This document shows positions 12,795-27,968 of a DNA stretch of 64,000 nucleotides, piece after piece. The notes beneath the pieces were generated by a model that was not told the DNA's origin, made no database searches, and saw only the letters and a program-made list of their open reading frames with translations. Made by a program: the position numbers and the translations under genes. The stretch comes from Ruminococcus flavefaciens (GTDB lineage: Bacteria; Bacillota; Clostridia; Oscillospirales; Ruminococcaceae). The stretch is taken from contig JAMPIL010000005.1 of assembly GCA_023662725.1 (NCBI GenBank), positions 1-64,000 of the forward strand. Direction: 5' to 3'. Numbering within the stretch: the first letter of the stretch is position 1; each line of letters starts with the position of its first letter.

Positions 12795-12838
12795 AACAGC
12801 AGTCTCTGCGGAAAATACAGAGACTGCTGTTATTTTTT
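12795..12838. terminator. bidirectional terminator
   Basis: AACAGCAGTCTCTG (12795-12808) pairs perfectly with CAGAGACTGCTGTT (12818-12831), a 14-base stem with T runs on both strands. It separates the Spo0A-like gene from the convergent ABC permease gene. Confidence 0.9.
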
Positions 12839-14201
12839 ATTCTTCAATTTCAGAATTTTGCTTTCTCTTTTTATATTTCGATTTCTGCCCGAAATTAAGC
12901 GAGATAGTGAAAATCTTATCCGACATGAACAATCTTAATGCAAAGAAAATACAGATGAGGAATATAATTATCTGATAAATAAGTCCGATGTAGAAGATGG
13001 TGGTGTTGCCGAACATCAGATTCGGAATTGCTGAGAAGGTGTGTGTAAACGGAATAGCATATACAAGGATTCGGATTGCCATTGGAAGCGTATTTACATC
13101 AGTGAACACCGAGATCATAAACGGTATCATTGCGCACAGCATTATCGGCATTATCATATTCTGAGTATTCTTGGAATCATTGATAAGCGCTCCGAGAATA
13201 AGCGAAACGGAAAGACAGATCATGATAGTGAAGAAGAGCTGTAATCCGACAAGGACGTAATCTCCTGCATTGAGGGAAAGTCCGAGTTGATTGAGAGCTG
13301 TGTCAATAGACATATTTTGTCCGATAACCGAATCGGCAGCATCTGAAAGGGTGTTGGTTGCTCCGCCGACAAAAGTGGAGAATCCAACCATGTATACGAC
13401 CGCATTAATGAGCGCTATAATGGCGGCGGCAAGCATTTTTGAGCCGATAACTGAAAGTCTTGATACAGGAGCTGAAAGCAGTGTTTCAAGGGTTTTATCT
13501 ATTTTTTCATTTGCGATAGCTCCCATGAGCATCTGCGATGTAAGCATGATAAGAACAAAAACTATGAGCGGAAGAACCATATTCTGCATCATGACTTTAT
13601 TCATAATGCTGTCTGATGAAACAGGAGCGGAATTATCGTCAACAACGGTATTATTTACTACGGAAACAGGAGATTCCATAAGAGCGTATTGTTTTTCGTT
13701 CATACCGGTATCGGAAGCTATAGTATTTGAAATACAGTTTTCAATAAGCTTTATTCCGCTGCTGTTTCCCGAGCTGATATTGGACATAGTAGCTGTGGAA
13801 GTCATTCTGGAAATGCTGATTATCTCCGGCTGTTCAGTTTTATTGATAGAATCAGTAAATCCTTTTGGAATGACGATAAGATTTGAGATATCGTTGCTGC
13901 TCAGTATATCGGCATAATCGTCGCCTTCGGTTTCAAAAATGTTTACCTTTACATTTGCGTTTGCATCCGGATCATGATTTAAGGCGTTCAGAGATTCAAT
14001 AATACCGTTTGTGAAATCGGTTTTGTCACGGTCGCTGATATTTATTGTAACGTTAGTGTTTTCATCAACGGCTTCATTGATAGACGTTTTCATTACTGTT
14101 CCGAGAACCATGAATATTGCCAGGCTGACAACAAGACCAAGTATCATTTGCAGATTGATAAGCTCGGAAAGCTCTTTTTTCAAAAGGTTAATGAACTTCA
14201 T
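12837..14201 (-). CDS. ABC-2 type permease, NatB-like
   Basis: 454 residues from ATG 14201, with a GGGTGG upstream; a longer frame to 14270 exists but has no RBS and lies in the ATPase gene. One N-terminal helix (residues about 17-37), a large extracytoplasmic domain to about 215, then five or six helices with NEKIDKTLETLLSAPVSRLS between them. That motif is typical of NatB/YhaP ABC-2 permeases, which pump sodium ions or drugs outward. It overlaps the ATPase gene by 14 bases, so translation is likely coupled. The downstream end is at the terminator 12795-12838. Confidence 0.88.
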   Translation of the reverse strand: MKFINLLKKELSELINLQMILGLVVSLAIFMVLGTVMKTSINEAVDENTNVTINISDRDKTDFTNGIIESLNALNHDPDANANVKVNIFETEGDDYADILSSNDISNLIVIPKGFTDSINKTEQPEIISISRMTSTATMSNISSGNSSGIKLIENCISNTIASDTGMNEKQYALMESPVSVVNNTVVDDNSAPVSSDSIMNKVMMQNMVLPLIVFVLIMLTSQMLMGAIANEKIDKTLETLLSAPVSRLSVIGSKMLAAAIIALINAVVYMVGFSTFVGGATNTLSDAADSVIGQNMSIDTALNQLGLSLNAGDYVLVGLQLFFTIMICLSVSLILGALINDSKNTQNMIMPIMLCAMIPFMISVFTDVNTLPMAIRILVYAIPFTHTFSAIPNLMFGNTTIFYIGLIYQIIIFLICIFFALRLFMSDKIFTISLNFGQKSKYKKRKQNSEIEE

Positions 14202-14928
14202 TTTCGAGCACCACCCTTTCAAAAACTTCTTCAAGATTAGCTGCATTATAACGCTGCTTAAGCTCGTCAATAGCTCCTGTTACCATAAGATGACCTTTGG
14301 CGATTATACCTACACGGTCGGAAACGAACTCTATTTCAAGCATATTATGAGACGAGAGCAGGAACGACATTCCCTCTTCTTTTGCAAGCTTTTTGATCGT
14401 CTTTCTTATTTCAATAGCGTTAAGAACATCAAGACCGCTTGTCGGTTCATCAAGAATAGCCAGCTTTGGCTTGGTCATAACAGCTCTTGCAAGAAGAAGC
14501 TTACGGATCATTCCACGGCTGTAGCTTCCGATTTTTTCGTTAAGACGATCTCCGAGACCGCATATTTCTTTTGCTCTTTCCACACATTTATTGACTGAAT
14601 CGATATCGGAGTAAAAAAGTCCTGCCATAAAGCGGAGATATTTTATTCCGGTCATATTTTTATATGCTCCTGCTTCATCCGGAAGATACGTTATACACTC
14701 ACGAACCTTATCAGGCTCTTTAACAACACTGTGTTCCCCTACGATAGCGTCGCCCGCTGTTGGTATAAGCAGAGTTGAGATCATGCGTATCGTAGTTGTC
14801 TTGCCTGCGCCGTTAGGACCGATTAGAGCGAAAATCTCGCCTTTTCCGATATCAAATTGTATGTTATCGGCAGCAAGAACCTTTGTATACTGTTTGGAAA
14901 GACCTTTTACTTCAAGAACTTTTTCCAT
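14188..14928 (-). CDS. ABC transporter ATP-binding protein, NatA-like
   Basis: 246 residues. Walker A GPNGAGKTTT, Q-loop region ITYLPDEAGAY, signature SYSRGMIRKLLLARA (SRGM replaces the usual SGGQ), Walker B LAILDEPTSGLD and the H-loop SSHNM are all present. Together with the coupled permease it forms an ABC-2 exporter of the NatA/YhaQ type. RBS AAGGAGG is 8 bases before the ATG. First gene of a two-gene operon; the substrate cannot be told. Confidence 0.93.
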   Translation of the reverse strand: MEKVLEVKGLSKQYTKVLAADNIQFDIGKGEIFALIGPNGAGKTTTIRMISTLLIPTAGDAIVGEHSVVKEPDKVRECITYLPDEAGAYKNMTGIKYLRFMAGLFYSDIDSVNKCVERAKEICGLGDRLNEKIGSYSRGMIRKLLLARAVMTKPKLAILDEPTSGLDVLNAIEIRKTIKKLAKEEGMSFLLSSHNMLEIEFVSDRVGIIAKGHLMVTGAIDELKQRYNAANLEEVFERVVLENEVH

Positions 14929-15426: not shown

Positions 15427-15455
15427 TTGACAAAAACAAATAAATTTGATATACT
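15427..15455 (+). promoter_or_regulatory. promoter of a candidate small RNA
   Basis: TTGACA (15427-15432) and TATACT (15450-15455) with a 17-base spacer. The predicted start is G15462. No reading frame follows within the next 280 bases. Confidence 0.8.
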
Positions 15456-15461
15456 TAGTTA

Positions 15462-15597
15462 GAAGGATTTATGCAGTTTGGCAAAGCTGTGAAATCAGAA
15501 CGTGAGGCATAGGCAGCCCGGGTTCGTATTGTGTTCGGTTTATATGTTATTAGTATAATGCAGAAATCCCTCTCAAATTCTGCATTATAATTTTTTA
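15462..15597 (+). ncRNA. candidate small regulatory RNA, about 135 nt
   Basis: Bounded by a strong promoter and a perfect intrinsic terminator. The 5' end AGAAGGATTT (15461-15470) can pair with AAATCCCTCT (15564-15573) at 9 of 10 positions. That second segment overlaps the terminator loop, which exposes CCCTCTC, complementary to Shine-Dalgarno sequences. The middle has short self-complementary pieces (GAAC with GTTC). No start codon with RBS is present. It is not a recognised SRP RNA, tmRNA or RNase P RNA; 6S RNA is possible because of the closing pairing, but it is short. Function unknown. Confidence 0.6.
15554..15597 (+). terminator. terminator of the candidate small RNA
   Basis: TATAATGCAGAA (15554-15565) pairs perfectly with TTCTGCATTATA (15578-15589), a 12-base stem with a 12-base loop, then ATTTTTT. 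The loop holds CCCTCTC. Confidence 0.85.
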
Positions 15598-15749
15598 TGA
15601 TATTTCTATGCTCTGCTGCCGGAATATTTTCGGTTTTTTTGTTGTGCCTTAACTCAGAACTTGTTAGTATAGTATACTGTAGTCTATGCGCCGATCATGT
15701 GTGAACAAGCTATTATTTCACGCTATTGCGGGAAAGGTGGATATAATAA

Positions 15750-18713
15750 GTGAACGTTAAAAAAATATGCCGCAGTTTTTCTGCCGGTATCTTGTCCTGC
15801 ATTGTTACGGTAAGCGGATGCGGGGGGATGTTCTCGGTTTTGGCTGCGGATAATGAAAACGATGAGTATGTTGTTTCGAGTGAAACTCTTGCTTCTATGG
15901 AAGAAGATTATTACACTATCGAGCCTATCGACAGTGATATGCTTTCTTTCAGCGATTATTATGATCTTTATTCTTCCGTTAATCGTTCGGATAGGTCGAT
16001 AGAGGTTAAAGGAATAGATTATACTTCGTTCAGCGGAGATATGTATGTCGGTTCTTACTCTGCGGACGGAGTTGAAAAAGACGACGTTCTTATATGGTCA
16101 GGCAGCGACGGTGAGGTTTTTTATAATATTGATGTAGAAGAATCCGGAATTTATTGTCTTAATATTGATTACTGCGCTCTTGTTTCAAACAGTTCGTCCG
16201 TTGAATTGTCGATGAAAATAGACGGAAAAGCTCCGTATGATACGGCTTCAAGAATCACTCTTAACAGAGTCTGGGTGAATGAGCAGGAGATTTATAAGGA
16301 TTCAAGAGGAAATCAGGTTCGTCCATCACAGATACAGAAAGAAATGTGGCAGAATTGTTGGGTAGGAGACGTTGAAGGTCTTTTCAGTCAGCCGCTTTTT
16401 TTCTATCTTGAAGAAGGTGAGCATGAGGTTTCGTTTTATTCCGAAAGAGCGCAGATCGCTGTCGATAGCTTTCGGTTTGCTAATCCGGAGGAGCTTTCAT
16501 CTTATTCAGATTATGTATCTTCGGTAAATGCTTCAGTAACAAAGGAAACAACTCCTTCAAGATTGTTCAGAATAGAAGGCGAAAATGCCGTTTATAAATC
16601 GGATTCAACGCTTTATCCTACATATGATAATACGAATTATCTTGTTTCGCCCTCTGATCCGAGAAAGGTTGTGTACAACACTCTCGGAAGCGAGAACTGG
16701 AAAAAGGCTTTGCAGTCGGTAACCTGGATAATTCCTAAGGAGAAGATCGGCAACGACGGCTGGTATAAAATTGGAATCAAGTCACGACAAGATCAGATGC
16801 GTGGATTTTACTCAAACAGACGTATTTATATTGATGATAAGGTGATCTGCGAGGAAATGGATCAGGTCAAATTCTATTATGATAACGACTGGGACGTCGT
16901 AAGCCCTAAGGCTGACGGAGACTATATCTACGTTTATCTTGACGCAAGCGTTGACCATACTATAACTCTTGAAGCTATTCCCGGAGAAATAGGCGATTCT
17001 CTCAGAAAGCTCGATAATGTTGTAGCCGATCTTAATACATATTATCGTAAGGTTCTTATGATAACAGGTCCTTCCCCGGATAAATATACCGATTATTACG
17101 TTCATGAAAAAATACCGGAGCTTGTCGGTGAATTTTCAAGAATTTCAGGCGAGCTTCAACAGATACAGAACGATATTGAAAAGCTTTCGGGTTCAGCCGG
17201 TTCAGAAGCAGCCGCACTTGAAACAATGACGGTAATTCTTGATAAATGTGTGGAGAAGCCGCTTAAGATACCGTCATATCTTTCTCAGATTAAGGATAAC
17301 ATCACATCCGTTTCTTCGTGGATGAGAGATTATCGTGACCAGCCGCTTGAAATCGACTATATTGAATTTGCTTCTGCTTACAAGGACTTTACAAGCTGTA
17401 AGAAAAACATCCTTAAATCGGCAAAATTTAGTTTCAGCGCATTTATCGGCTCATTTTTCGAGGATTATACGACTCTTTCCGATGTTACAGGCGAAGATGT
17501 TATCAATGTCTGGGTCTCGCTCGGACGTGATCAGGCTCAGGTAGTAAAGGAAATGGCGGAAAACCAGTTTATGCAGGAATATAATATCCCGATCTCTGTC
17601 AACCTCGTTATCGGAGGCGTTGTTGAGGCTACTCTTGCCGGAAAAGGTCCTGATGTTGCACTGTTCCTCGGCGGAGAATTTCCGGTAAACCTTGCCGCCC
17701 GTGATCTGCTTGTTGATATGTCTCAGTTCAGCGACTATAAGGAGGTCACCGAACGTTTTCAGAAAAACGCCATGACTCCTTATACTTACAACGGCGGAAC
17801 TTACGGTTTGCCTGTAAGCCAGACTTTCCCGATGATGTTTTACCGCACCGATGTTCTGACCGAATTGAATTATAATGAACCTCCGGAAACGTGGGACGAC
17901 CTTATAGATATGCTTCCTGCGCTCCAGCGAAATTATATGTCTGTCGGGCTTATTCTTCCGCCGACTAATATCTCGCCTGCAACAGAAGCCGGACATACCT
18001 TTGCAATGCTTCTGCTTCAGAAAGGCAGGAACTATTATAACGACGCTCAGACGACCTCGACGTTTGATTCGATCGAAGCAGTTCAGGCTTTCGAGCAGTG
18101 GACGGATTTCTATACCGAATACAGCTTCGTTCAGACCTATGACGCATTCAGTCGTTTCAGAACGGGCGAATATCCTATTGTTATCGCAAATTATACTTTT
18201 TATAATCAGCTTTCAGTGGCTTCTCCGGAAATCAAGGGACTCTGGGACTTCTGTCAGGTTCCCGGAACTCTTCAGGAGGACGGAACTGTTTCTCATGCTG
18301 CAAATTCAACCGGTTCGGGAGCAGTCATCTTCAAAAAGGTGAAAAACAAAGAAAACGCATGGAAATTTGTAAAATGGTTCACGGAAACCGAAACTCAGGT
18401 TCAGTATGGTACTCAGATAGAAGGACTTCTCGGCACGATGGGAAGATTCGATACCGCTAACCTTGAGGCTCTTGAGCAGCTTTCATGGTCTAACGATGAA
18501 CTTGCAAGACTTCGTGACCAGCAGGAGGAGCTTGTGGAGATTCCTGTAATTCCCGCTTCTTATGCAGTCACAAGAAATATTATGAACGCTTTCAGAGAAA
18601 CTGTAAATGAAAACCAGAATCCAAGAGATACCCTTGTCTGGTATAATCGTGATATAAACGACGAGATCACAAGAAAACGTGAGAATCTCGGATTAAGCGC
18701 AGATGAAGAATGA
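15750..18713 (+). CDS. large extracellular solute-binding protein with N-terminal accessory domains
   Basis: 987 residues from GTG 15750 (GGAAAGGTGG upstream), about twice the size of a normal sugar-binding protein. A signal peptide covers residues 1-33, and VTVSGC resembles a lipobox, so a lipid anchor is possible. Residues about 65-240 and 270-430 look like two beta-sandwich modules of a carbohydrate-binding type (for example WYKIGIKSRQDQMRGFYSNR). A helical linker follows (about 455-520). Residues about 565-985 are a family-1 solute-binding domain: VINVWVSLGRDQAQVVKEMA, GKGPDVALFLGGEFP, YGLPVSQTFPMMFYR, NAWKFVKWFTE. It heads an operon with permeases and probably captures an oligosaccharide. 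Confidence 0.88.
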   Translation: MNVKKICRSFSAGILSCIVTVSGCGGMFSVLAADNENDEYVVSSETLASMEEDYYTIEPIDSDMLSFSDYYDLYSSVNRSDRSIEVKGIDYTSFSGDMYVGSYSADGVEKDDVLIWSGSDGEVFYNIDVEESGIYCLNIDYCALVSNSSSVELSMKIDGKAPYDTASRITLNRVWVNEQEIYKDSRGNQVRPSQIQKEMWQNCWVGDVEGLFSQPLFFYLEEGEHEVSFYSERAQIAVDSFRFANPEELSSYSDYVSSVNASVTKETTPSRLFRIEGENAVYKSDSTLYPTYDNTNYLVSPSDPRKVVYNTLGSENWKKALQSVTWIIPKEKIGNDGWYKIGIKSRQDQMRGFYSNRRIYIDDKVICEEMDQVKFYYDNDWDVVSPKADGDYIYVYLDASVDHTITLEAIPGEIGDSLRKLDNVVADLNTYYRKVLMITGPSPDKYTDYYVHEKIPELVGEFSRISGELQQIQNDIEKLSGSAGSEAAALETMTVILDKCVEKPLKIPSYLSQIKDNITSVSSWMRDYRDQPLEIDYIEFASAYKDFTSCKKNILKSAKFSFSAFIGSFFEDYTTLSDVTGEDVINVWVSLGRDQAQVVKEMAENQFMQEYNIPISVNLVIGGVVEATLAGKGPDVALFLGGEFPVNLAARDLLVDMSQFSDYKEVTERFQKNAMTPYTYNGGTYGLPVSQTFPMMFYRTDVLTELNYNEPPETWDDLIDMLPALQRNYMSVGLILPPTNISPATEAGHTFAMLLLQKGRNYYNDAQTTSTFDSIEAVQAFEQWTDFYTEYSFVQTYDAFSRFRTGEYPIVIANYTFYNQLSVASPEIKGLWDFCQVPGTLQEDGTVSHAANSTGSGAVIFKKVKNKENAWKFVKWFTETETQVQYGTQIEGLLGTMGRFDTANLEALEQLSWSNDELARLRDQQEELVEIPVIPASYAVTRNIMNAFRETVNENQNPRDTLVWYNRDINDEITRKRENLGLSADEE

Positions 18714-18732
18714 ACGGAAGGAGGATAAAGCC

Positions 18733-19674
18733 TTGGCTCAGACAGATACTGAAAATATCGGCAGAAAAAACAAAAAAGAAGAACGCCGCATGATATGGAG
18801 TTCTATGAAGCGCAATAAAGCCTGTTATGCAATGCTTGCGCCGTTTATGATATTCTTTATCGTTTTTACGGTCATTCCCGTTGTTATGTCGCTTCCTATC
18901 GGATTCACCGATTTCAATATGGCTCAGCCGCCTAAATATATCGGTCTCTCTAATTATACTACGCTTTTCCTTTCGGATAAGATATTCATTAAATCAATAA
19001 GAGTTACTATAGTTTTCGTTTTGTTCACAGGTCCGATAAGCTATATTCTCTGCTTTCTGCTTGCATGGCTTATCAACGAGCTTCATCCGAAACTGAAAAC
19101 TGTTTTCACTCTTATTTTCTACGCTCCGTCAATGGCTAACATTTATACAGTATGGCAGCTTATTTTCAGCGGAGATATGAACGGATATATCAACTCGTTT
19201 CTCATAAATCTCGGACTTATCAACGCTCCGATCCAGTGGCTTACCGACGCTAAATATGTTCTCGGAGCAACTATCGTGGTTCAGCTCTGGATATCTCTCG
19301 GAGCAGGCTTCCTTGCTCTTCGTGCGGGATTTCAGAATATCGACCGATCAATGTATGAAGCAGGAGCTATCGAGGGTATCAGAACAAGGTGGCAGGAGCT
19401 TATCTATATCGTTATCCCATCTATGGGACCGCAGCTTATGTTCGCTGCCGTTATGCAGATAGTAAGCTCGTTTACCGCCGGAACTGTGGCGCAGAATCTT
19501 GTCGGATTCCCCAGCACGGATTACAAGGCGCATACTATCATGACTCACGCTTACGATTACGGATGGGTGCGATACGAAATGGGTTACGCTTCGGCAATAT
19601 GTATGGTATTGTTCGTGGCGATGTATCTCTGCAACAAACTTATCAGCAAGGCGCTGAGCAAGTATATGGATTAG
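18733..19674 (+). CDS. sugar ABC transporter permease, MalF/UgpA type
   Basis: 313 residues from TTG 18733. An upstream ATG at 18703 would overlap the previous gene, but the only ribosome binding site, AAGGAGG at 18718-18724, lies downstream of it and 8 bases before the TTG. The resulting N-terminus (MAQTDTEN) resembles that of the next permease (MAQVNTAK). Six membrane helices and the cytoplasmic EAA loop (EAGAIEGIRTRWQELIYIVI, P) that contacts the ATPase are present. It pairs with the next gene to form one import channel; the energising ATPase is not encoded nearby. Confidence 0.93.
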   Translation: MAQTDTENIGRKNKKEERRMIWSSMKRNKACYAMLAPFMIFFIVFTVIPVVMSLPIGFTDFNMAQPPKYIGLSNYTTLFLSDKIFIKSIRVTIVFVLFTGPISYILCFLLAWLINELHPKLKTVFTLIFYAPSMANIYTVWQLIFSGDMNGYINSFLINLGLINAPIQWLTDAKYVLGATIVVQLWISLGAGFLALRAGFQNIDRSMYEAGAIEGIRTRWQELIYIVIPSMGPQLMFAAVMQIVSSFTAGTVAQNLVGFPSTDYKAHTIMTHAYDYGWVRYEMGYASAICMVLFVAMYLCNKLISKALSKYMD

Positions 19675-19686
19675 GGAGGAGGTTTG

Positions 19687-20565
19687 ATGGCTCAGGTCAA
19701 TACTGCGAAGCTTAAAGCTTCAAATAAACAAGCCGGAAAAAAAGTCGGCGGAACTATCGCTATCTTTGCGTTCCTCACCATACTCGGACTTTTCATGGCG
19801 CTTCCTATTTATCTTACTGTTGTAATGTCGATAAAGCCTGTTGAGGAGCTTTTCATTTTTCCTCCGAAGCTTTATGCGATAAGACCTACTCTTGATAATT
19901 TCAGCGAGATGTTTGCCGCTCTTAATCAGAACAGAGTTCCGTTTTCAAGATATGTTTTCAACAGCATTTTTGTAACGGTCACCGTTACTATCGCACAGTG
20001 TATATTTGCTTCAATGGCGGCTTTCGTTCTTGCAAAATGCCGTTTTCCGGGAAGCAAAATAATCAACAGCATTATCGTTGTCGCTCTTCTTTATCAGAGC
20101 AATGTTATCTATATAATGCAATACATGGTTATGGCTAAGCTTAATATGATAGATTCGTATCTGGCGCTTATTCTTCCTTCGATCGCTTCACCTATGGGTC
20201 TTTTTCTTATGAGACAATCTATAAGTCAGGTTCCCGACGCTATGATAGAGGCGGCGAAGGTTGACGGAGCAGGATTGTTCCGTATATGCTGGCAGATAGT
20301 TATGCCCAATCAGAAACCGGCGCTTATGACTCTTATCATTTTTGCGTTTCAGGCAGCCTGGAATATTCAGGCGGGAACTGTTGTATTCCGTGAGCAGTAT
20401 AAAACGCTCCCCACCGTTGTTACGCAGGCGGCAGCCTCAGGTCTTGCAAAAGCCGGAGTCGCTATGGCGGCGGCAGTATTCATGCTTGTTCCGCCTATCA
20501 TCGTATTCATGATAGCTCAGAAGAACGTTATTGAAACAATGGCTCATTCAGGCATAAAAGATTAA
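19687..20565 (+). CDS. carbohydrate ABC transporter permease, MalG type
   Basis: 292 residues from ATG 19687, preceded by GGGAGGAGG. Six membrane helices; the EAA loop reads EAAKVDGAGLFRICWQIVMP, a good MalG/CUT1 match. It is 12 bases downstream of its MalF-type partner and forms with it the first permease pair of the locus. Confidence 0.94.
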   Translation: MAQVNTAKLKASNKQAGKKVGGTIAIFAFLTILGLFMALPIYLTVVMSIKPVEELFIFPPKLYAIRPTLDNFSEMFAALNQNRVPFSRYVFNSIFVTVTVTIAQCIFASMAAFVLAKCRFPGSKIINSIIVVALLYQSNVIYIMQYMVMAKLNMIDSYLALILPSIASPMGLFLMRQSISQVPDAMIEAAKVDGAGLFRICWQIVMPNQKPALMTLIIFAFQAAWNIQAGTVVFREQYKTLPTVVTQAAASGLAKAGVAMAAAVFMLVPPIIVFMIAQKNVIETMAHSGIKD

Positions 20566-20588
20566 GAAGTACGGAAAGGGTGAAATAA

Positions 20589-22124
20589 GTGAAAAAAGGA
20601 AATAAAAAGCTTTTGCCGCTGGTTTTATCGGGTGTGCTTCTTACAGGAGTTTCAGCTTCGCTTACAGCTTTTGCCGATGAACCCTATGATGTCTACAACT
20701 ACGACCGCTGGGGCGAGGCTATCCCGTCGCAGGCAGGATATATCGCAGACAGAAGCGTTTCCGGCAACGATCTCGGAATAGGTTCGATGAACAGTCCGAG
20801 CGATATCTTCCGTGACCATAACGACATTTTTTATATTGTCGATACCGGAAACGACCGGATCATTACCGTTAATTCCGAAATGGACAAGGTGCTTCGGATC
20901 TACGATAAGTTCACCATGCCAGACGGCTCGGAAACAACTCTTAAAAATCCTATGGGAATTTTTATTTCGGCTGAAAACGACTATATGTATATCGCCGACA
21001 ACGAAAATTCAAGAGTGCTTGTGTGCAATTATGACGCAGAGGTTATTCAGGAGATAAAAAAGCCGACCTCTGATGTTTACGATCAGAAAAGAACTTTTCT
21101 TCCGCAGCGTGTTGTTGCGGATAAGGCAGGCAACGTTTACGTTGTTCTGAATAATATTACAACCGGAGCCGCCATGTTTTCTCCGGACGGAGAATTCATA
21201 GGCTTTTACGGTGCAAACCGTGTTGAAGCTACGGCGGAAATAGTCGGAAACTATGTTAAAAACCTGTTTGCTTCAGAGGAAAAGAAAGCGCATAAGGCAA
21301 GAAACGTCCCTACAGGTATCACAAGTTTTGATATTTACGGAGATTTCATTTTTACCTGCACTTCCTCGTCAACGCAGACAACCGATACCGTTAAGAAGCT
21401 TAATGCTGCCGGAAATAATAATTTTGCGAATCTTGAACTTTATTTCGGCGATATTACTCCGATGTATGATACATCCCAGAATAAGCTTCTATCTTCGGCT
21501 ATTGTTGATATTGATATTGCCGATGATAAGAATATAAATTGCCTCGATCGTACGACAGGACGTGTTTTTCAGTATGACGAAGACTGTAATCTTATGTTTA
21601 TTGTCGGAACAAAGGCGAATCAGCTCGGAGGTTTCGATACTGTTTCGGCTATTGAATCAATGGACGGAAATCTTTATGTTGTTGATTCCGCAAAAGCTAC
21701 TGTAACGATCTTTACGGAAACGTCGTTTGGCGAGATAGTTCACGAAGCGGCTTCGCTTTATAATGCAGGATATTATGAAGAAGCTCTTGAACCGTGGTAT
21801 GAGGTTCTTAAAAGAGACGGAAACTACAGAAGAGCGTATATCGGAGTTGCGTCTGCTCTTCTCCGCAAGGGCGATTATAAGGGTGCGATGAAGTATGCAA
21901 AGCTTGCTGACGCTCCTGCAATTTATAATAAGGCTTTCGAGGGATACCGCATGGAATTTCTTAAAGCCAATTTCGGAAAAATAGCTGCGGTTCTGGTAAT
22001 TCTTGCTGCGGTGATTATATTTCTGAACAAAAAGAAGAAGAAAAAACGTCTTGTCGAAGCAGCGGCTCTGGCAGCTAAGCTTGCCGAGGAAGAACGGGAA
22101 CGCAAGAAAAAGGAGGAGGGATAA
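20589..22124 (+). CDS. exported NHL-repeat and TPR protein with C-terminal anchor
   Basis: 511 residues from GTG 20589 (GGAAAGGGTG upstream). A signal peptide (residues 1-30, cut near AFADEP) is followed by an NHL-type beta-propeller (about 60-370: [56 protein letters not shown]). A TPR-like helical pair follows (about 385-440: [20 protein letters not shown]), then one membrane helix (about 465-483) and a lysine-rich cytoplasmic tail. The sensor-like propeller therefore faces outward. NHL propellers bind sugars, peptides or RNA in various families. Placement between two permease pairs suggests a surface partner of the transporter; this is inference. Confidence 0.85.
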
Positions 22125-22129
22125 GCTTT

Positions 22130-22759
22130 ATGATGGATCTTACTCAGAGAGAATGGGTAAAACACGCAGTTACTCATCCTTTTGAAGGATTCGAGGATAT
22201 GCGCTGGAAGAAATCCGGTTCGCTTAAAATCGCTTTTCTCATAGTGCTTCTGTTTTTCTTTGCGAGAATTGCTTATTCAAGGCTTTACGGTTTTCAGTTT
22301 TATGTTGATTACGACAAAACATTCAATATTATCCCTTATATTATTCAGAGTATAGTTCTGTTTGCGGCTTGGGTAGTCGGAAACTGGGCGGTCTGTACTC
22401 TTTTAAACGGAGAGGGAACGGCGAAAAATATCTGTATCTACAGCGCCTATGCTCTTATTCCGTATGTTGCTCAGATTTATATAAACGTTATTCTTTCCCA
22501 TGTTCTGATAAGGGACGAGTATATATTCATGCAGGCGATCGAAATAATAGGAACGGGATGGACTGTTATTCTGCTGTTTTCAGCGATCAAATCGGTTCAT
22601 CAGTATTCTTTCGGAAAAACCGTTTTTGCGATAATTTTAACTATTGCGGCAATGCTTATTATGTTGTTTTTGCTTGTTTTGTTCATGTCGCTTATCCAGC
22701 AGGTATGGATATTCGTTTCAACGGTTTATACTGAAATTTCTTACAGGCTCAGAGTCTGA
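22130..22759 (+). CDS. Yip1-like integral membrane protein
   Basis: 209 residues with five hydrophobic helices (about residues 30-47, 62-82, 100-122, 136-157, 165-192) after a short cytoplasmic start ([26 protein letters not shown]). The [11 protein letters not shown] motif at the start is a hallmark of bacterial Yip1-domain proteins. Lies 5 bases after the NHL gene and overlaps the next frame. Yip1-like proteins have no defined activity in bacteria; the strict placement here argues for a structural role in the uptake complex. Confidence 0.8.
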
Positions 22760-22776
22760 TGAACGGCGGTGAAATT

Positions 22777-25629
22777 ATGAGTAATAAAATTAAACGATTT
22801 TTACTTTGTTTTCTTATCGTTTCGGCTATGAGCATGGGCGGAAATATTTTTGCCGTTGATGAAAATGACGATGAAAGTATTTCTTCCGCTGATGAGGAAT
22901 ACAAAGAAGAAACCGGTGAGAGCGATTTGAAAGCAAGGGCTAAGAGAAGCGAGGCTGTTGAAAAAACTGATTTCGATGCGGAAACGTCAAAAAAATTCTT
23001 CATCAATGCCGGAAGCGTTGACGGACTGAACGTCTATATTAAAAGTGAGAATTACGAAGATGAGATCTGGAATTCGCATGGCGGAAAGCCTGACAAAAAA
23101 GCTGAACTGACTGAGGCTCAGGAAAAGGAAAAAGAAGCCGTAGAGGATGAGATTTCCGCCGTTAAGAAACTTGGAGACGCTGTTGCTTTTTATTCGGAAA
23201 CAGGCGAGCCGGCTGCTGAATTCAAACAGCTTTCCGAGAATGACGGAGTACGCTCTTTCATCAGCAATGAAGGCAGATTTATTATCGAGGTTCAGAGCGA
23301 TACCAATAAGGTAATCAAGGTCAAAAATATAGTGTCAACTCTCGACAGTGAAAACGTTTTTCTTTCGGATGAGGGAAAAACGCTGGAGCTTATGTCCGAT
23401 GACAATAAAAAGGTTGATACTGTTTTCAGATATGCTTCCACAGCGGACGGCATGAGAACTTATAAATCCGAAAACGACGGTAAATTTGCTTGGGTTTCGG
23501 AAACAGCAGACCATTTTTACGGTATTTACAGATACGGTGAGGAGAACGATGATTTCAGGATGATCGTTGACGATGCACACGCTATTTTCGGTCTTGAAAA
23601 TAAAAAAACAGGCTATATCTGGTGGTCTTCACCGTTTGACGCTACTCAGGATACTTATGCTACACCGCTTCTCGTTGATGGGCTACGCTCGTCAAATATG
23701 ATGAATTACGGTGTGATTGAAAACCGTAATACCAGCAATACGCTTTATTCAAATACCGGCGACTGCGTTGTTGCAGTAAGCGATATTTCAAACGGAATTA
23801 GAGTTGTTTATGATTATAAAAAAGCCGGATTCAAGTTCCCGGTCGATTATACTCTGGAAAGCGATCATCTGAAAGCAAGTTTGAAGGTAGGTGAAATAGA
23901 GGAGACGAATTCCGCTAATGCCGCTTTGGAAATGACCGTTCTTGCCAATTTCGGCGCAGCCTCTGATAAAGAGGACGGATATTTTATCATTCCGGATGGA
24001 AGCGGAGCGCTGGTTCGATTCAACAATGACAGAGTTATGGGTTCAAATGCCTATATGCAGAAGGTTTACGGTTCGGACATAACGGCGGTTCCCACAACTA
24101 AGGGAGCAGTTACAGAACAGATATATCTTCCGGTTTACGGCATTGTAAAGGAAGATAACGCAATGCTTGTTGTCGCTTCAAAGGGCGATTCAAATGCTTC
24201 TGTTTCGGTCAAAGTGTCGAAACAATCGAATACAAGCTATAATATGTGCAATTTTACCTTTACCCTCAGAAATACCGATACATATTTCATGTCCGGCGGA
24301 AATCAGAAACTTACTATGTTTGAAAGCGGAAAGATAAAGTCTGACGATATCGAGCTTCTTTATTATCCGATCTCAAAAGAGGGCGTGGACTATGTTGATG
24401 TTGCTGAATGCTACAGAAATTACCTCGTCAATGAAGCGGGAGTTACAAAGAAATCCGAAGCTGGATATGCTCCGATGTATGTCGATCTTTATGGCGGCGT
24501 TCAGAAGAAAAAGCCGATTCTTGGCATTCCTGTAACGCTTAAAACGGCTGTTACGGATTATGAACAGGCGAAAGAGATACTTACGGGACTTAACGGCAGC
24601 GGTGTTGATAAGATGGTCGTTTCCTATAATAACTGGACTAACGACGGCATAAAAAATAAAATCGATACCGACGCTAAGCCTTCCGGAACTCTTGGCGGAA
24701 AAAAAGATTTTAACAGTCTTGTGGACTATATGAACAGCAATGACATTGAATTCTATCCCGTGTCTGACAACAGGAATTTTTATTCCGGAAACGGCTATTA
24801 TTCCTTTACAAGCACAGCGGTAAGAGTTTCGGGAAATTATTCAAGAATAGTCAGCTACGACCGTGCGTACGGTATTCCGGACGGATTCAAGAAGAATATG
24901 TCGCTTCTTTCGCCAAGTTACTTCGGCGAGATAATGGGGGAGATTTCGGAAAATTATCCAAAGTCCGGTCTTGAGGGAGTATCGGTCGCCGATCTGACAA
25001 CTGCTCTCTATGGCGATTACGGCAAAAAAGCTATGTCACGCTGCGATACGATGAAGCAGCTCGTTGAAAGCTATAAAAAGCTGGATTCTTCGCTTGAAAA
25101 CGGTATGCTTGCCGACAGCGCAAACGCTTATGCACTGCCGTATGTAAGCCATATTACGAACGTTCCGCTTTCTTCAAGCCGATTTGATATGTTCGACGAG
25201 GATATACCGTTCTATCAGCTTGTAATGCATGGAATTATTCCTTATTCCACAACTGCTGTCAACGGCAGCGCTGATTCGGAAACGCTTCTGCTTATGGCGG
25301 CTGCTACCGGAAGCAATCTCGGCTACGATATGCTTTATGAGGAAACGAGTTTGCTTAAAGATACGGAATTTGATATATATTACTATGCAAACTATCAGAA
25401 CTGGATAGAAACAGCTGCGGCTGAATACAGGCTTATTGAACCTATTCTCAGCAGTGTTAGCGACTCTGTAATCACGGATTACGTCGCTGACAACGACGGT
25501 AATAATATTACAACAACTTACTCGAATGGAAACGTTATAAGCGTTGACTTTGAAGAAAAATCAATAGATTTTAACGGCTCACGTTATTATCTTTCAGATC
25601 TTGAAGAGGAAGGGGGTATCAGATTCTGA
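22777..25629 (+). CDS. large exported DUF5696-type protein
   Basis: 950 residues from ATG 22777 (GGCGGTG upstream); an ATG at 22759 overlapping the previous stop is an alternative and adds six residues. Signal peptide at residues 1-28, then an acidic low-complexity region, a beta-rich region (about 170-420) and a probable TIM-barrel-like half (about 540-860: GSGVDKMVVSYNNW, NSLVDYMNSNDIEFYPVSDN, SLLSPSYFGEIMGEI). The arrangement fits DUF5696 proteins found beside sugar permeases, which look like distant glycoside hydrolases; no catalytic acids can be named with confidence. It probably acts at the cell surface on the transported glycan. Confidence 0.75.
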   Translation: MSNKIKRFLLCFLIVSAMSMGGNIFAVDENDDESISSADEEYKEETGESDLKARAKRSEAVEKTDFDAETSKKFFINAGSVDGLNVYIKSENYEDEIWNSHGGKPDKKAELTEAQEKEKEAVEDEISAVKKLGDAVAFYSETGEPAAEFKQLSENDGVRSFISNEGRFIIEVQSDTNKVIKVKNIVSTLDSENVFLSDEGKTLELMSDDNKKVDTVFRYASTADGMRTYKSENDGKFAWVSETADHFYGIYRYGEENDDFRMIVDDAHAIFGLENKKTGYIWWSSPFDATQDTYATPLLVDGLRSSNMMNYGVIENRNTSNTLYSNTGDCVVAVSDISNGIRVVYDYKKAGFKFPVDYTLESDHLKASLKVGEIEETNSANAALEMTVLANFGAASDKEDGYFIIPDGSGALVRFNNDRVMGSNAYMQKVYGSDITAVPTTKGAVTEQIYLPVYGIVKEDNAMLVVASKGDSNASVSVKVSKQSNTSYNMCNFTFTLRNTDTYFMSGGNQKLTMFESGKIKSDDIELLYYPISKEGVDYVDVAECYRNYLVNEAGVTKKSEAGYAPMYVDLYGGVQKKKPILGIPVTLKTAVTDYEQAKEILTGLNGSGVDKMVVSYNNWTNDGIKNKIDTDAKPSGTLGGKKDFNSLVDYMNSNDIEFYPVSDNRNFYSGNGYYSFTSTAVRVSGNYSRIVSYDRAYGIPDGFKKNMSLLSPSYFGEIMGEISENYPKSGLEGVSVADLTTALYGDYGKKAMSRCDTMKQLVESYKKLDSSLENGMLADSANAYALPYVSHITNVPLSSSRFDMFDEDIPFYQLVMHGIIPYSTTAVNGSADSETLLLMAAATGSNLGYDMLYEETSLLKDTEFDIYYYANYQNWIETAAAEYRLIEPILSSVSDSVITDYVADNDGNNITTTYSNGNVISVDFEEKSIDFNGSRYYLSDLEEEGGIRF

Positions 25630-26582
25630 TGAATGAACAGAATGCTGTTTCAATGAAAACAGATGTAAAAGAGAAAAAGAAAAAAGTTCGCAGGATGTCT
25701 TACGAAAGAAGAAAGGCGCTTTACGGATATGGTTTTATTTCGCTCTGGCTTGTCGGAACGCTGATGTTTTTTCTTATTCCTCTGGGAAAATCGCTATGGT
25801 ACTCATTTAATGAAGTAACAATCGAAACAGGAGGAATAGTTACTGAATGGAAGGGGCTTGGAATGTATTCATATGCCTTGAATGAAGACCGTGATTTTGC
25901 CGATAATCTTGGAGATATGCTTCTTGAAACTCTATGGAAAACGCCTCTTATCCTGATTTTCTCACTGTTTATCGCTGTTATTCTTAATCAGAAATTCAAG
26001 GGAAGAACTCTTTCAAGAGCAATTTTCTTCCTTCCTGTAATTATTGTTACAGGACCTGTTTTCAAAATAATCAGCGGTGATATGAATTCGACCGGAAACA
26101 CCGGCGCAGAACAGTTTTCTACGATGTTTTCAACTGATCTGGTCGGGGAGCTTATGCAGTTTCTGGGAATTTACGGACTAAGCGATAAAATGAATACCAT
26201 AATTTCAGCCGTCGCCGATAACATTTTCGGAATAGTATGGAGTTCGGGAATACAGATACTCCTGTTTCTTGCTGCTCTTCAGAACATTCCGCCGTCGGCA
26301 AAGGAAGCTGCTCAGATGGAGGGCGCAACGGCTTGGGAATATTTCTGGAAGATTACTTTTCCTTATGTAAGTCCGTTTATTCTTGCGAATCTTATTTTTA
26401 CGGTCATTGATTCGTTTACAAGTCCGATGAATACTGTTATGAAGCGTATTCTTGAGACAAAGAGCGAATGGAAATACGGCGAGGCTTCGGCTATGGCATG
26501 GATATATTTCCTTATCGTTCTTGCCGCCATCGGCATAATTTCCGCAATAGTAAATAAATTTATTTACTATGAGGTCGATTAA
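25629..26582 (+). CDS. sugar ABC transporter permease, second MalF type
   Basis: 317 residues, ATG overlapping the previous TGA by one base, with GGAAGGGGG upstream. Six membrane helices after a basic N-terminus (KEKKKKVRRMSYERRK); the EAA loop is EAAQMEGATAWEYFWKITFP. A long extracytoplasmic segment after the first helix (about residues 55-95) distinguishes it from the first MalF-type gene at 18733, so it is not a recent duplicate. It forms a second permease pair with the next gene. Confidence 0.92.
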   Translation: MNEQNAVSMKTDVKEKKKKVRRMSYERRKALYGYGFISLWLVGTLMFFLIPLGKSLWYSFNEVTIETGGIVTEWKGLGMYSYALNEDRDFADNLGDMLLETLWKTPLILIFSLFIAVILNQKFKGRTLSRAIFFLPVIIVTGPVFKIISGDMNSTGNTGAEQFSTMFSTDLVGELMQFLGIYGLSDKMNTIISAVADNIFGIVWSSGIQILLFLAALQNIPPSAKEAAQMEGATAWEYFWKITFPYVSPFILANLIFTVIDSFTSPMNTVMKRILETKSEWKYGEASAMAWIYFLIVLAAIGIISAIVNKFIYYEVD

Positions 26583-26596
26583 GGAGGTGGAGCAAT

Positions 26597-27628
26597 ATGT
26601 CAGATAATACCATCGATCCTGTCGTTAAGTCCGAACACGAGATCGGCAGCGGCATGAGTAAAAAGCAGGCGAAAAAAATTCGTTTGCAGTTTATGTCGAG
26701 AGAAGAGATCGGCTATGTAAGAAGAAAAGCTGCACTTGAAAAAGTATGGCCGTTTTTCAGGTTCGTTATTCTTTTCGGATTGGGATTTGTAATTCTCTAT
26801 CCTCTTATTTATATGGTGAGCTGCGCTTTCAGAGACAGAGCCGATATGAACGATCCGACAGTTATGTGGATTCCGAGGCACTACACTATTGAAATAATGA
26901 AGGAAACCATTAAGGCGATGGATTTCGGCAAGACTCTTAAAACAACTTTACTGCTGAATATAGGCTGTTCATTTGTTCAGGTAATTTCGTGCGCAATAAC
27001 AGGATACGGCTTTGCAAGATTTAATTTTAAGGGTAAGAAATTTCTTTTTCTCATTGTTATAATGATGATACTTGTTCCGCCGCAGGTTATTTCGCTTCCG
27101 CTGTTTGCACAATTCAGATTCTTTGGTATCAAGGGACTGTTTTCAGTCAATCTTATAGACAGTATGCTTACGATGTATCTTCCGGCAATTACGGCGAACG
27201 GAATACGTTCGGGACTTATGATTCTTATTTTCCGACAGTTCTTCAAGGGACTTCCGAAAGAGCTTGAGGACGCTGCTTATATCGACGGATGCGGTCCTTT
27301 TATGACATTTATAAGAGTTATGATACCAAATGCGGTTTCATCTTTCCTTACTGTTTTTCTCTTTTCGGTCGTATGGTACTGGAACGATTATTATGTAAGC
27401 ACAACTTTCTTCACCAATACAAATACTGTTGCAACTATGCTTTATAATATTGATACAAGACTCAGCGAGGCTCTTTTTAATGATGCGACTGTCAAGATAG
27501 ATCCACGTGAGCTGATCGTTTGGAAAGAAGCTGGCTGTTTGCTTTCAATAACTCCTATTCTTGTCATTTATGTGTTCCTGCAAAAGCATTTCACGGAGGG
27601 AATTGAGCGTTCGGGACTTGTTGGTTAG
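26597..27628 (+). CDS. carbohydrate ABC transporter permease, second MalG type
   Basis: 343 residues, with RBS AAGGAGGTGG 5-6 bases before the ATG. A long basic cytoplasmic N-terminus (about 55 residues) precedes six membrane helices; the EAA loop reads DAAYIDGCGPFMTFIRVMIP. An extra loop near the C-terminus (residues about 265-310, TRLSEALFNDATVKIDPREL) is not typical of MalG. Last gene of the uptake operon; a terminator follows at 27661-27700. Confidence 0.92.
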   Translation: MSDNTIDPVVKSEHEIGSGMSKKQAKKIRLQFMSREEIGYVRRKAALEKVWPFFRFVILFGLGFVILYPLIYMVSCAFRDRADMNDPTVMWIPRHYTIEIMKETIKAMDFGKTLKTTLLLNIGCSFVQVISCAITGYGFARFNFKGKKFLFLIVIMMILVPPQVISLPLFAQFRFFGIKGLFSVNLIDSMLTMYLPAITANGIRSGLMILIFRQFFKGLPKELEDAAYIDGCGPFMTFIRVMIPNAVSSFLTVFLFSVVWYWNDYYVSTTFFTNTNTVATMLYNIDTRLSEALFNDATVKIDPRELIVWKEAGCLLSITPILVIYVFLQKHFTEGIERSGLVG

Positions 27629-27660: not shown

Positions 27661-27700
27661 AGCTTTCTGGAAAAATCTCCGGAAAGCTATTGCTTTTTGC
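27661..27700 (+). terminator. terminator of the uptake operon
   Basis: AGCTTTCTGG (27661-27670) pairs with CCGGAAAGCT (27679-27688), one pair being G-T, followed by ATTGCTTTTT. The T tract overlaps the -35 of the next promoter. Confidence 0.75.
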
Positions 27701-27724: not shown

Positions 27725-27968
27725 CGTTGAGTACGCAGTGTGCGTACTGACTGCAGAAGATATGCGAGGAAGCAGAAGGTTGCTGCCGGTATGGCAGGTA
27801 ATTTCTGTGGAGTATGTCCGATTTTAAACCGGGCGATTGGGATAATGAACACAGTTTGTGGTATTTAAAACTTGCGCAGCTTGCGTATGCGTAAGGATAA
27901 TAATGCCCTAACTATACACGCTTGAAATCCTGATTACTCGGAAAACATACCGTTTTTCGAGTTTTTTT
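27725..27968 (+). ncRNA. structured leader or small RNA ahead of the S10 operon
   Basis: About 244 bases without a credible gene but with ordered hairpins: AGTACGCA/TGCGTACT (27730-27748), CAGAA-CTGCC/GGCAG-TTCTG (27773-27806), CTTGCGCA with TGCGTAAG (27871-27895), and a terminal stem CTCGGAAAAC/GTTTTTCGAG with T7. Because no second promoter is visible between this terminator and rpsJ, the likeliest reading is a ribosomal-protein attenuation leader for the S10 operon, in the manner of L4 control in E. coli. A free-standing RNA is the alternative. Confidence 0.6.
27937..27968 (+). terminator. terminator or attenuator before rpsJ
   Basis: CTCGGAAAAC (27937-27946) pairs with GTTTTTCGAG (27952-27961), nine Watson-Crick pairs and one G-T, then seven T. 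A further small hairpin, CACACG-GAAG-CGTGTG (27987-28002), follows before the rpsJ ribosome binding site. Confidence 0.8.

Follow-up and report, generated by a model that had tools for sequence, protein, structure and literature searches.

A two-importer CUT1-type operon conserved in the genus Ruminococcus, probably for uptake of plant cell-wall oligosaccharides

We analysed a stretch of 64,000 nucleotides (the window) from contig JAMPIL010000005.1 of Ruminococcus flavefaciens and focused on eight open reading frames (ORFs) at positions 15750-27628 of its plus strand, which encode, in order, a 987-amino-acid solute-binding protein (SBP), the permeases MalF1 and MalG1, an NHL-TPR protein, a Yip1 protein, a DUF5696 protein, and the permeases MalF2 and MalG2. 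This operon probably specifies a two-importer CUT1-type system that takes up plant cell-wall oligosaccharides and corresponds in kind to XloEFG-X-GH129-AxoFG(E) of Caldicellulosiruptor bescii. The system is real, deeply conserved and widespread; rather than a new category, it represents a variant of known CUT1 importers, and a counterpart of it has been published and partly studied. The gene order and its conservation, the separability of two modules, the ATPase inventory of the genome and the families of the parts were observed directly, as described below.

The counterpart is the XDL transporter operon of Caldicellulosiruptor (Anaerocellum) bescii, Athe_0174-0185 (PMC8579813, PMC12285236). 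In the passages of PMC8579813 that concern it, the operon xloEFG-X-GH129-axoFGE-xynF-xynE-xynD-xyn10A-xynX-xynB is presented as a pair of CUT1 transporters separated by "X" and "GH129", is reported as induced by xylan and as differentially expressed on xylan and cellulose, and is assigned to the XynR/AraR regulons (Table 3 of that paper); according to the relevant part of PMC12285236, the XynR operator sits before Athe_0174. We found the exact published XDL operator in 3 of 13 genomes of one thermophile-like family, approximately 7.4 kb before the DUF5696 gene, and we infer that this family is that of Caldicellulosiruptor, with the operator as part of the basis for the assignment. In the one genome that was checked in full, the operator lies 170 bp before a giant SBP gene, which is followed by F1, G1, a gene for a 716-amino-acid NHL-Yip1 protein, DUF5696, F2 and G2, and then by a 601-amino-acid ORF at the position of axoE and by GH43 and GH10 glycoside hydrolase (GH) genes. 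In a relative (locus L171), the 597-amino-acid ORF at the axoE position is an SBP. Because the gene order behind the published operator matches, the published X can be identified with the NHL-Yip1 protein and the published "GH129" with the DUF5696 protein.

The order giant SBP-F1-G1-NHL/Yip1-DUF5696-F2-G2 is also found in the window, and in this respect its operon fits the XDL-type dual CUT1 systems. The two operons share this seven-part order and the lack of an ATPase gene among the parts, the published shared ATPase of C. bescii being MsmK. They differ in that NHL and Yip1 are separate genes in the window, that the SBPs of the second importer are unlinked, and that no GH genes follow the operon. 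Given that the operon matches a xylan-induced counterpart, it is therefore most likely a machine that takes up plant cell-wall fragments. The glycan uptake proposed in the initial annotation gains support from this homology and from the carbohydrate-active genes found beside other copies.

The eight ORFs were confirmed at the coordinates and on the strand first assigned to them, with intergenic gaps of -11 to +23 bases, and the two unlike permease pairs, the Yip1 protein and the DUF5696 protein were all recognised by Pfam (Table 1). All four permeases exceeded the cut-off for BPD_transp_1 and carry an EAA-type ATPase-docking loop, so that a CUT1-type binding-protein domain occurs together with two EAA-loop permeases, as in a CUT1 importer. 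Hydropathy analysis revealed N-terminal hydrophobic segments, for export or anchoring, in the giant SBP, NHL and DUF5696 proteins. No ATPase gene is present between the first and last genes of the operon, in agreement with the initial annotation. The eight ORFs include no GH gene, and no SBP of standard size adjoins the second permease pair. The operon thus resembles CUT1 importers that rely on a shared MsmX/MsmK/UgpC ATPase in having a binding protein, two unlike EAA permeases and an unlinked ATPase with a MalK OB fold, and it differs from them in its two permease pairs, in a binding protein of roughly double the normal length, and in three extra exported or membrane proteins.

Table 1 Features of the operon and its flanking signals in the window.
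Feature	Position	Strand	Basis
Giant solute-binding protein (XloE-type), 987 amino acids	15750..18713	+	Pfam, hydropathy, relatives
MalF1-type permease (XloF-type), EAA loop	18703..19674	+	Pfam, synteny, loop motif
MalG1-type permease (XloG-type), EAA loop	19684..20565	+	Pfam, synteny, loop motif
NHL propeller + TPR protein, signal segment, one C-terminal transmembrane segment, lysine-rich tail	20589..22124	+	
Yip1-domain membrane protein, five predicted transmembrane segments	22130..22759	+	Pfam, hydropathy
DUF5696 (PF18952) protein, 956 amino acids, N-terminal export/anchor segment, remotely GH129-like architecture	22759..25629	+	
MalF2-type permease (AxoF-type), EAA loop	25629..26582	+	Pfam, synteny, loop motif
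MalG2-type permease (AxoG-type), EAA loop	26597..27628	+	Pfam, synteny, loop motif
Promoter-like site TTGACA-17-TATACT, TG before second hexamer	15427..15455	+	Consensus match only
Intrinsic-terminator-like hairpin, 11 pairs then T-rich tail	27661..27688	+	Consensus match only

The system is not special to this window, given that DUF5696 was present in all 35 genomes of the same genus (50 of 60 relatives in all); among 398 genomes sampled across the phylum, 43 were over the cut-off. To describe gene order, we collected 134 loci (20, 77, 34 and 3 others), many of them closely related, of which all except L038, or 133, contain DUF5696 at the chosen threshold and two (L024 and L095) represent the same ORF; gene-order profiles were built from the subset of 20. 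The gene directly before DUF5696 was NHL/Yip1, and the gene directly after it was MalF2, in each of the 128 testable loci. The view that these parts belong together thus held for DUF5696, which was never seen in an unrelated context. Conserved synteny also rules out a chance or artefactual assembly of the locus. Of 102 loci, 91 retain the whole order SBP-F1-G1-NHL-Yip1-DUF5696-F2-G2, counting both free and fused Yip1. Among the exceptions, SBP-F1-G1 follows the second permease pair in four loci (L169, L173, L175 and L176) and is absent from the stretch in three (L162, L163 and L190). The giant SBP is absent from the stretch in L185, where only different F1/G1-like permeases occur, after the second pair; in L170 it follows MalF2 and a MalG2-like gene stands at the front. 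MalG2 is absent from the stretch in L181, and Yip1 is split into two ORFs in L025. These eleven exceptions show that the genes do not form a single fixed block and instead fall into two separable modules: a fixed core of NHL/Yip1-DUF5696-F2, which G2 usually accompanies, and the SBP-F1-G1 part, which can move.

The two modules nevertheless occur in the same genomes. The N-terminal half of the giant SBP was detected in all 41 genomes with a strong DUF5696 match (best E 6e-125 or better, strong and weak matches having been divided by hand) and in 2 of the other 357 among the 398 sampled (Fisher p 6e-54, a figure that ignores relatedness); the comparison excluded 11 genomes in which the DUF5696 match was weak and 6 in which the SBP-half match was weak. 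The SBP half matched at E 1e-150 or better in 40 of the 41, and the remaining match (G155, E 2e-46) is a contig-start fragment on the DUF5696 contig. In the two genomes that have the SBP half and no DUF5696 match, the SBP half lies on short contigs of 3.8 and 4.3 kb. DUF5696 homologues were found in only 2 of 72,556 plasmid records. DUF5696 is therefore not a typical plasmid gene, and mobile spread is not favoured as an explanation of its distribution.

In contrast to this fixed core, the genes around the operon vary. Twenty flanking proteins, chosen by hand, were put to Pfam and yielded seven GH or lyase families (GH43, GH26, GH30_2, GH3, GH42, GH35 and alginate lyase) and five binding proteins. 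Given that the position of DUF5696 is kept while the neighbouring GH genes differ, a structural or hand-over role for this protein is weakly suggested.

The window DUF5696 protein matched the DUF5696 family at E 2e-159, which was its only Pfam match at E<=1; the GH129 profile (PF11308) did not match it. With a profile of 128 DUF5696 sequences, hhalign gave a probability of 93 (E 3e-7) for an alignment of residues 260-941 to a GH129-type protein; for the core region alone, the aligned stretch was shorter and the probability was 95 (E 3e-8). The scores were 72-83 for DUF6259 and GH13 proteins and 3.7 or less for eight controls. The GH129, DUF6259 and GH13 proteins are not a blind sample, because they were picked for already matching the DUF5696 profile weakly, and the GH129 set consists of two sequences. 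The GH129-type comparison protein itself matches both Pfam families, GH129 and DUF5696, and resembles 5wzn. Further GH129 relatives were found in none of 249 sampled genomes, a search in which the controls also gave no match, and in 2 of 9 genomes in one family, so that the GH129 side rests on two sequences. Separately, an 871-amino-acid protein at L195:7417-10029 was observed to combine a GH129 (PF11308) match with a C-terminal DUF5696 match and forms a bridge between the families. The DUF5696 profile matched one solved structure, a chondroitinase, at E 0.2. D753 is the sole barrel-region position with an acidic residue in at least 85% of the 128 sequences, and E814 is E in 75%. DUF5696 thus appears remotely GH129-like: the alignment described above suggests a likeness to the GH129/GH101 hydrolases (NagBb, 5WZN), from which it differs in lacking a Pfam GH129 match and in a best solved chain at only E 0.2. 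Trimming of the glycan, put forward as a possibility in the initial annotation, stays conjectural, since this resemblance is remote and few acidic residues are conserved. Our literature search turned up no paper naming DUF5696.

These results bear on whether the operon encodes a joint machine at all. It might instead contain two ordinary, independent CUT1 importers, with NHL/Yip1 incidental and DUF5696 a plain exported glycosidase. The naming of XloEFG and AxoFGE as two CUT1 transporters in the corresponding passages of PMC8579813, the separability of SBP-F1-G1 from NHL-DUF-F2-G2, and the remote GH129 likeness of DUF5696 are all in keeping with this possibility, but the NHL/Yip1-DUF5696-MalF2 core remains unbroken in 128 of 128 loci despite differing GH neighbours, which is unlike a substrate-specific enzyme, and the giant SBP accompanies strong DUF5696 in 41 of 41 genomes. 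We consider such independence possible although unlikely. A bolder proposal, that NHL-Yip1 and DUF5696 are obligate subunits of a new class of ATP-binding cassette (ABC) importer, in which the GH129-like fold would serve as a glycan receptor or clamp on MalF2/MalG2 and both permease pairs would form one supercomplex with one shared ATPase, strikes us as doubtful. Such a supercomplex would invite comparison, as a Gram-positive counterpart, with the SusCD-type "bind and import" machines.

Under the reading that we prefer, that of a two-importer CUT1-type system, an ATPase has to be supplied from elsewhere in the genome. A single ORF exceeded the UgpC cut-off (482 versus 432 bits) among 45 matches at E<=1e-3, the next best scoring 319.5. 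This UgpC/MsmX-type ATPase (C11:224934-226064) is unlinked to the operon and is flanked by genes for a pseudouridine synthase and a peptidase, and of the two best ATPase matches it alone carries the MalK OB fold. When it was used as a blastp query over the collected loci (E<=1e-20), the matches were limited to the two ATPases of the genome itself and to ORFs of at most 340 amino acids with approximately 38% identity or less; an ATPase hidden in the operon flanks was thus not borne out. In the Paenibacillus cellulosilyticus plasmid (NZ_CP054609.1, locus L299), ugpC lies inside the operon, 37 bases before the giant SBP gene; this is the one in-operon ugpC case found, other such cases not having been searched for. 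In C. bescii, deletion of msmK impaired growth on cellobiose, cellulose, xylan and pectin, as stated in the passage of PMC8579813 on this mutant. The prediction of a shared ATPase encoded elsewhere is supported by these three lines of evidence.

The second importer likewise appears to draw on unlinked proteins. Standard-size SBPs (approximately 430-600 amino acids) adjoin the operon in many loci, including two named plasmids with two annotated SBPs each, and 29 flanking ORFs form one BLAST cluster, in which the five flanking SBPs put to Pfam were all confirmed. We compared 19 of the 29 (ten, several of them cut pieces, were left out) with the eight stretches that hold all PF01547 matches of the R. 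flavefaciens genome outside the window. At E<=1e-5, one ORF was matched by 14 queries and a second by 13, with 15 of the 19 matching at least one; no other ORF in the eight stretches was matched, and the giant SBP of the window was matched by none of the 19. These orphan SBPs (G000 C11:1191724-1193136 and C11:316643-318100) both begin with what we read as lipobox signals and would thus be lipoprotein-like. In a tree of 39 rows, both fall inside a 21-row flank-SBP group (96/97), in which they form a five-row group with two L171 SBPs and the L186 SBP (97/96), several branches being long. By row counts, orphan type A (at least 57% identity) is present in 37 of 40 genus genomes and type B (at least 45%) in 36 of 40. 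The giant binding protein of the initial annotation thus stands, whereas the idea that it is the sole binding protein of the system is weakened by the two orphans. Orphan B follows a GH10 xylanase gene in this genome. Among ten neighbours scanned with Pfam from eight of 20 orphan-B loci, there were two GH9 and no GH10 proteins, and neighbours vary; a xylan link through this GH10 gene is therefore reduced to a weak hint.

In the giant SBP, the SBP_bac_8/SBP_bac_1 matches are confined to residues ~598-888, in the C-terminal 40% of the protein, and relatives of solved structure, of which Lin1841 is the best and other sugar-binding proteins come next, cover the C-terminal part only. Among 26 family members, the N-terminal half of approximately 520 amino acids matched CBM_35 in 13 and Golvesin_C in 17 (E<=0.1), and in the window's own protein it had no match. 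From these family profiles, the N-terminal half appears related to CBM35/CBM6-like modules.

By analogy with C. bescii, the substrate in this organism is probably an oligosaccharide derived from xylan or beta-glucan. It is improbable that the general substrate is something other than a plant glycan and that the xylan link is a specialisation of Caldicellulosiruptor. The window operon has no GH gene of its own, and in P. cellulosilyticus the operon led by ugpC is followed by LLM flavin-dependent oxidoreductases and two SBPs, which suggests a different, perhaps non-glycan or modified, substrate for that copy. The CBM35/CBM6-like modules of the giant-SBP relatives, the CUT1-type families, and the GH genes beside copies in several families nevertheless all speak against a general substrate of another kind. 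It was also observed that one genome of the same order as the host (G045, a 1.8-Mb assembly) contains six DUF5696 genes, located at L025-L027 and at three other sites, which gives the impression of a system multiplied for different substrates.

The window NHL-TPR protein matched NHL at E 2e-4, just above the cut-off, and TPR below it, and the Yip1 protein matched Yip1 at E 2e-13. In a homologue that forms one ORF, the values were E 4.5e-12 for NHL and E 1.4e-21 for Yip1. The original NHL/TPR label is thus weak for the window copy and firm for the homologue. The two proteins are fused into one in many lineages, with 28 such ORFs, one of which (L168) is truncated. Our literature search turned up no paper linking Yip1 with an SBP, a permease, NHL, the sugar ABC transporters of Firmicutes or transporters more broadly, and on two permease pairs it gave nothing relevant, the one review retrieved having no passage on unusual permease sets. 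It is most improbable that NHL/Yip1/DUF5696 has no part in transport and instead acts as a sensor at the surface or helps to assemble glycan-degrading proteins. In favour of such a role, NHL and TPR domains mediate protein interactions, the NHL/Yip1 protein has a predicted membrane-spanning topology, and the Butyrivibrio copy has a two-component system upstream of it. Against it, the invariant neighbour on one side is a permease gene and not a kinase, regulator or secretion gene, and no cytoplasmic signalling domain was detected in the scanned proteins (the window copies and one homologous locus).

For the two-importer system, we propose that importer 1 would consist of the giant SBP with MalF1/MalG1, its N-terminal carbohydrate-binding half holding polymer or long oligomers, and that importer 2 would consist of MalF2/MalG2 served by the two unlinked lipoprotein-like SBPs. 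Because NHL/Yip1-DUF5696-MalF2 is an inseparable core, the NHL-TPR/Yip1 proteins, with the propeller outside and Yip1 in the membrane, and the exported DUF5696 protein would be dedicated partners of importer 2, where they would most likely receive or trim glycan as it arrives and pass it on at the membrane. The single UgpC/MsmX-type ATPase would drive both permease pairs.

Several observations weigh against this proposal. Besides the relatedness that the co-occurrence figure ignores, six uncounted genomes have weaker SBP-half matches (E 2e-46 to 3e-14) and no strong DUF5696. The pairing of SBPs with permease pairs rests on gene order and names from the literature, and in L165, L170 and L172 the standard SBPs that adjoin the operon do not group with the flank-SBP clade. 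Only 5 of 20 relatives have an ORF resembling the GH10 gene beside orphan B (BLAST), and the two of these scanned with Pfam are GH9. No conserved pair of catalytic acids was recognised in the 128 DUF5696 sequences. Finally, the P. cellulosilyticus copy adjoins flavin oxidoreductases and not GH genes, with no obvious glycan context.

With regard to transcription, the promoter-like site upstream of the operon agrees with 11 of 12 consensus positions and ends 295 bases upstream of the first start codon, and the terminator-like hairpin starts 33 bases past the last stop codon. These sites are weak evidence for one transcript, because the consensus scan yielded 45 promoter-like sites, where shuffling predicts 28.5, and 16 terminator-like sites, where it predicts 11.5, some of them inside the operon. 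A TTGACA..TATA pair is present in 50 of 58 compared giant-SBP leaders. Just 3' of the promoter-like site, at 15469-15493, is a near-palindrome, TTATGCAGTTTGGCAAA..., that is possibly the operator of some regulator; its half-site TTATGCAG is present in 23 of the 58 leaders. The full palindrome had no match at up to 8 mismatches in the stretches carrying the orphan SBPs or the ATPase, and the window's own palindrome has 6 mismatches to the chosen consensus, a score of 6 or fewer that 2 of 20 shuffled patterns also reach in the same sequence. With no match there and shuffles scoring equally, a shared operator, or co-regulation with the orphan SBPs and the ATPase, was not supported. Inside the leader of ~295 bases, a terminator-like hairpin with a T run was also seen at 15618-15634; among nine aligned leaders it is evident only in the nearest relative (L096), and it may possibly act in attenuation.

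Downstream of the last permease gene, the operon is followed by the terminator-like hairpin and, at 27759-27836, by an S10-Clostridia ribosomal-protein leader (RF03136, 43.6 bits), with no xylanase or xylosidase genes in the operon; the next unit is therefore a ribosomal-protein operon. In some other Ruminococcus loci, an ORF of approximately 600 amino acids lies between the operon and the S10 operon, and the only one scanned (L072:14896-16707) is a membrane glycerophosphodiester phosphodiesterase. On the other side, at 12837-14928, the minus strand carries what is by sequence an ABC exporter pair (a permease and a 246-amino-acid ATPase), oriented divergently to the operon. Other Ruminococcus loci also have ORFs of similar size and strand, and their function looks unrelated.

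The importer is thus kept throughout the genus Ruminococcus and also occurs in other plant-degrading Bacillota, and for three of its conserved parts our literature search gave no function. Sugar transport is described as understudied in this setting in the abstract of PMC12096829. Synteny shows which proteins to study together, the analysis identifies a likely ATPase and candidates for the binding proteins absent from the operon, and C. bescii, in which gene deletion has been done, is the place to test the system.

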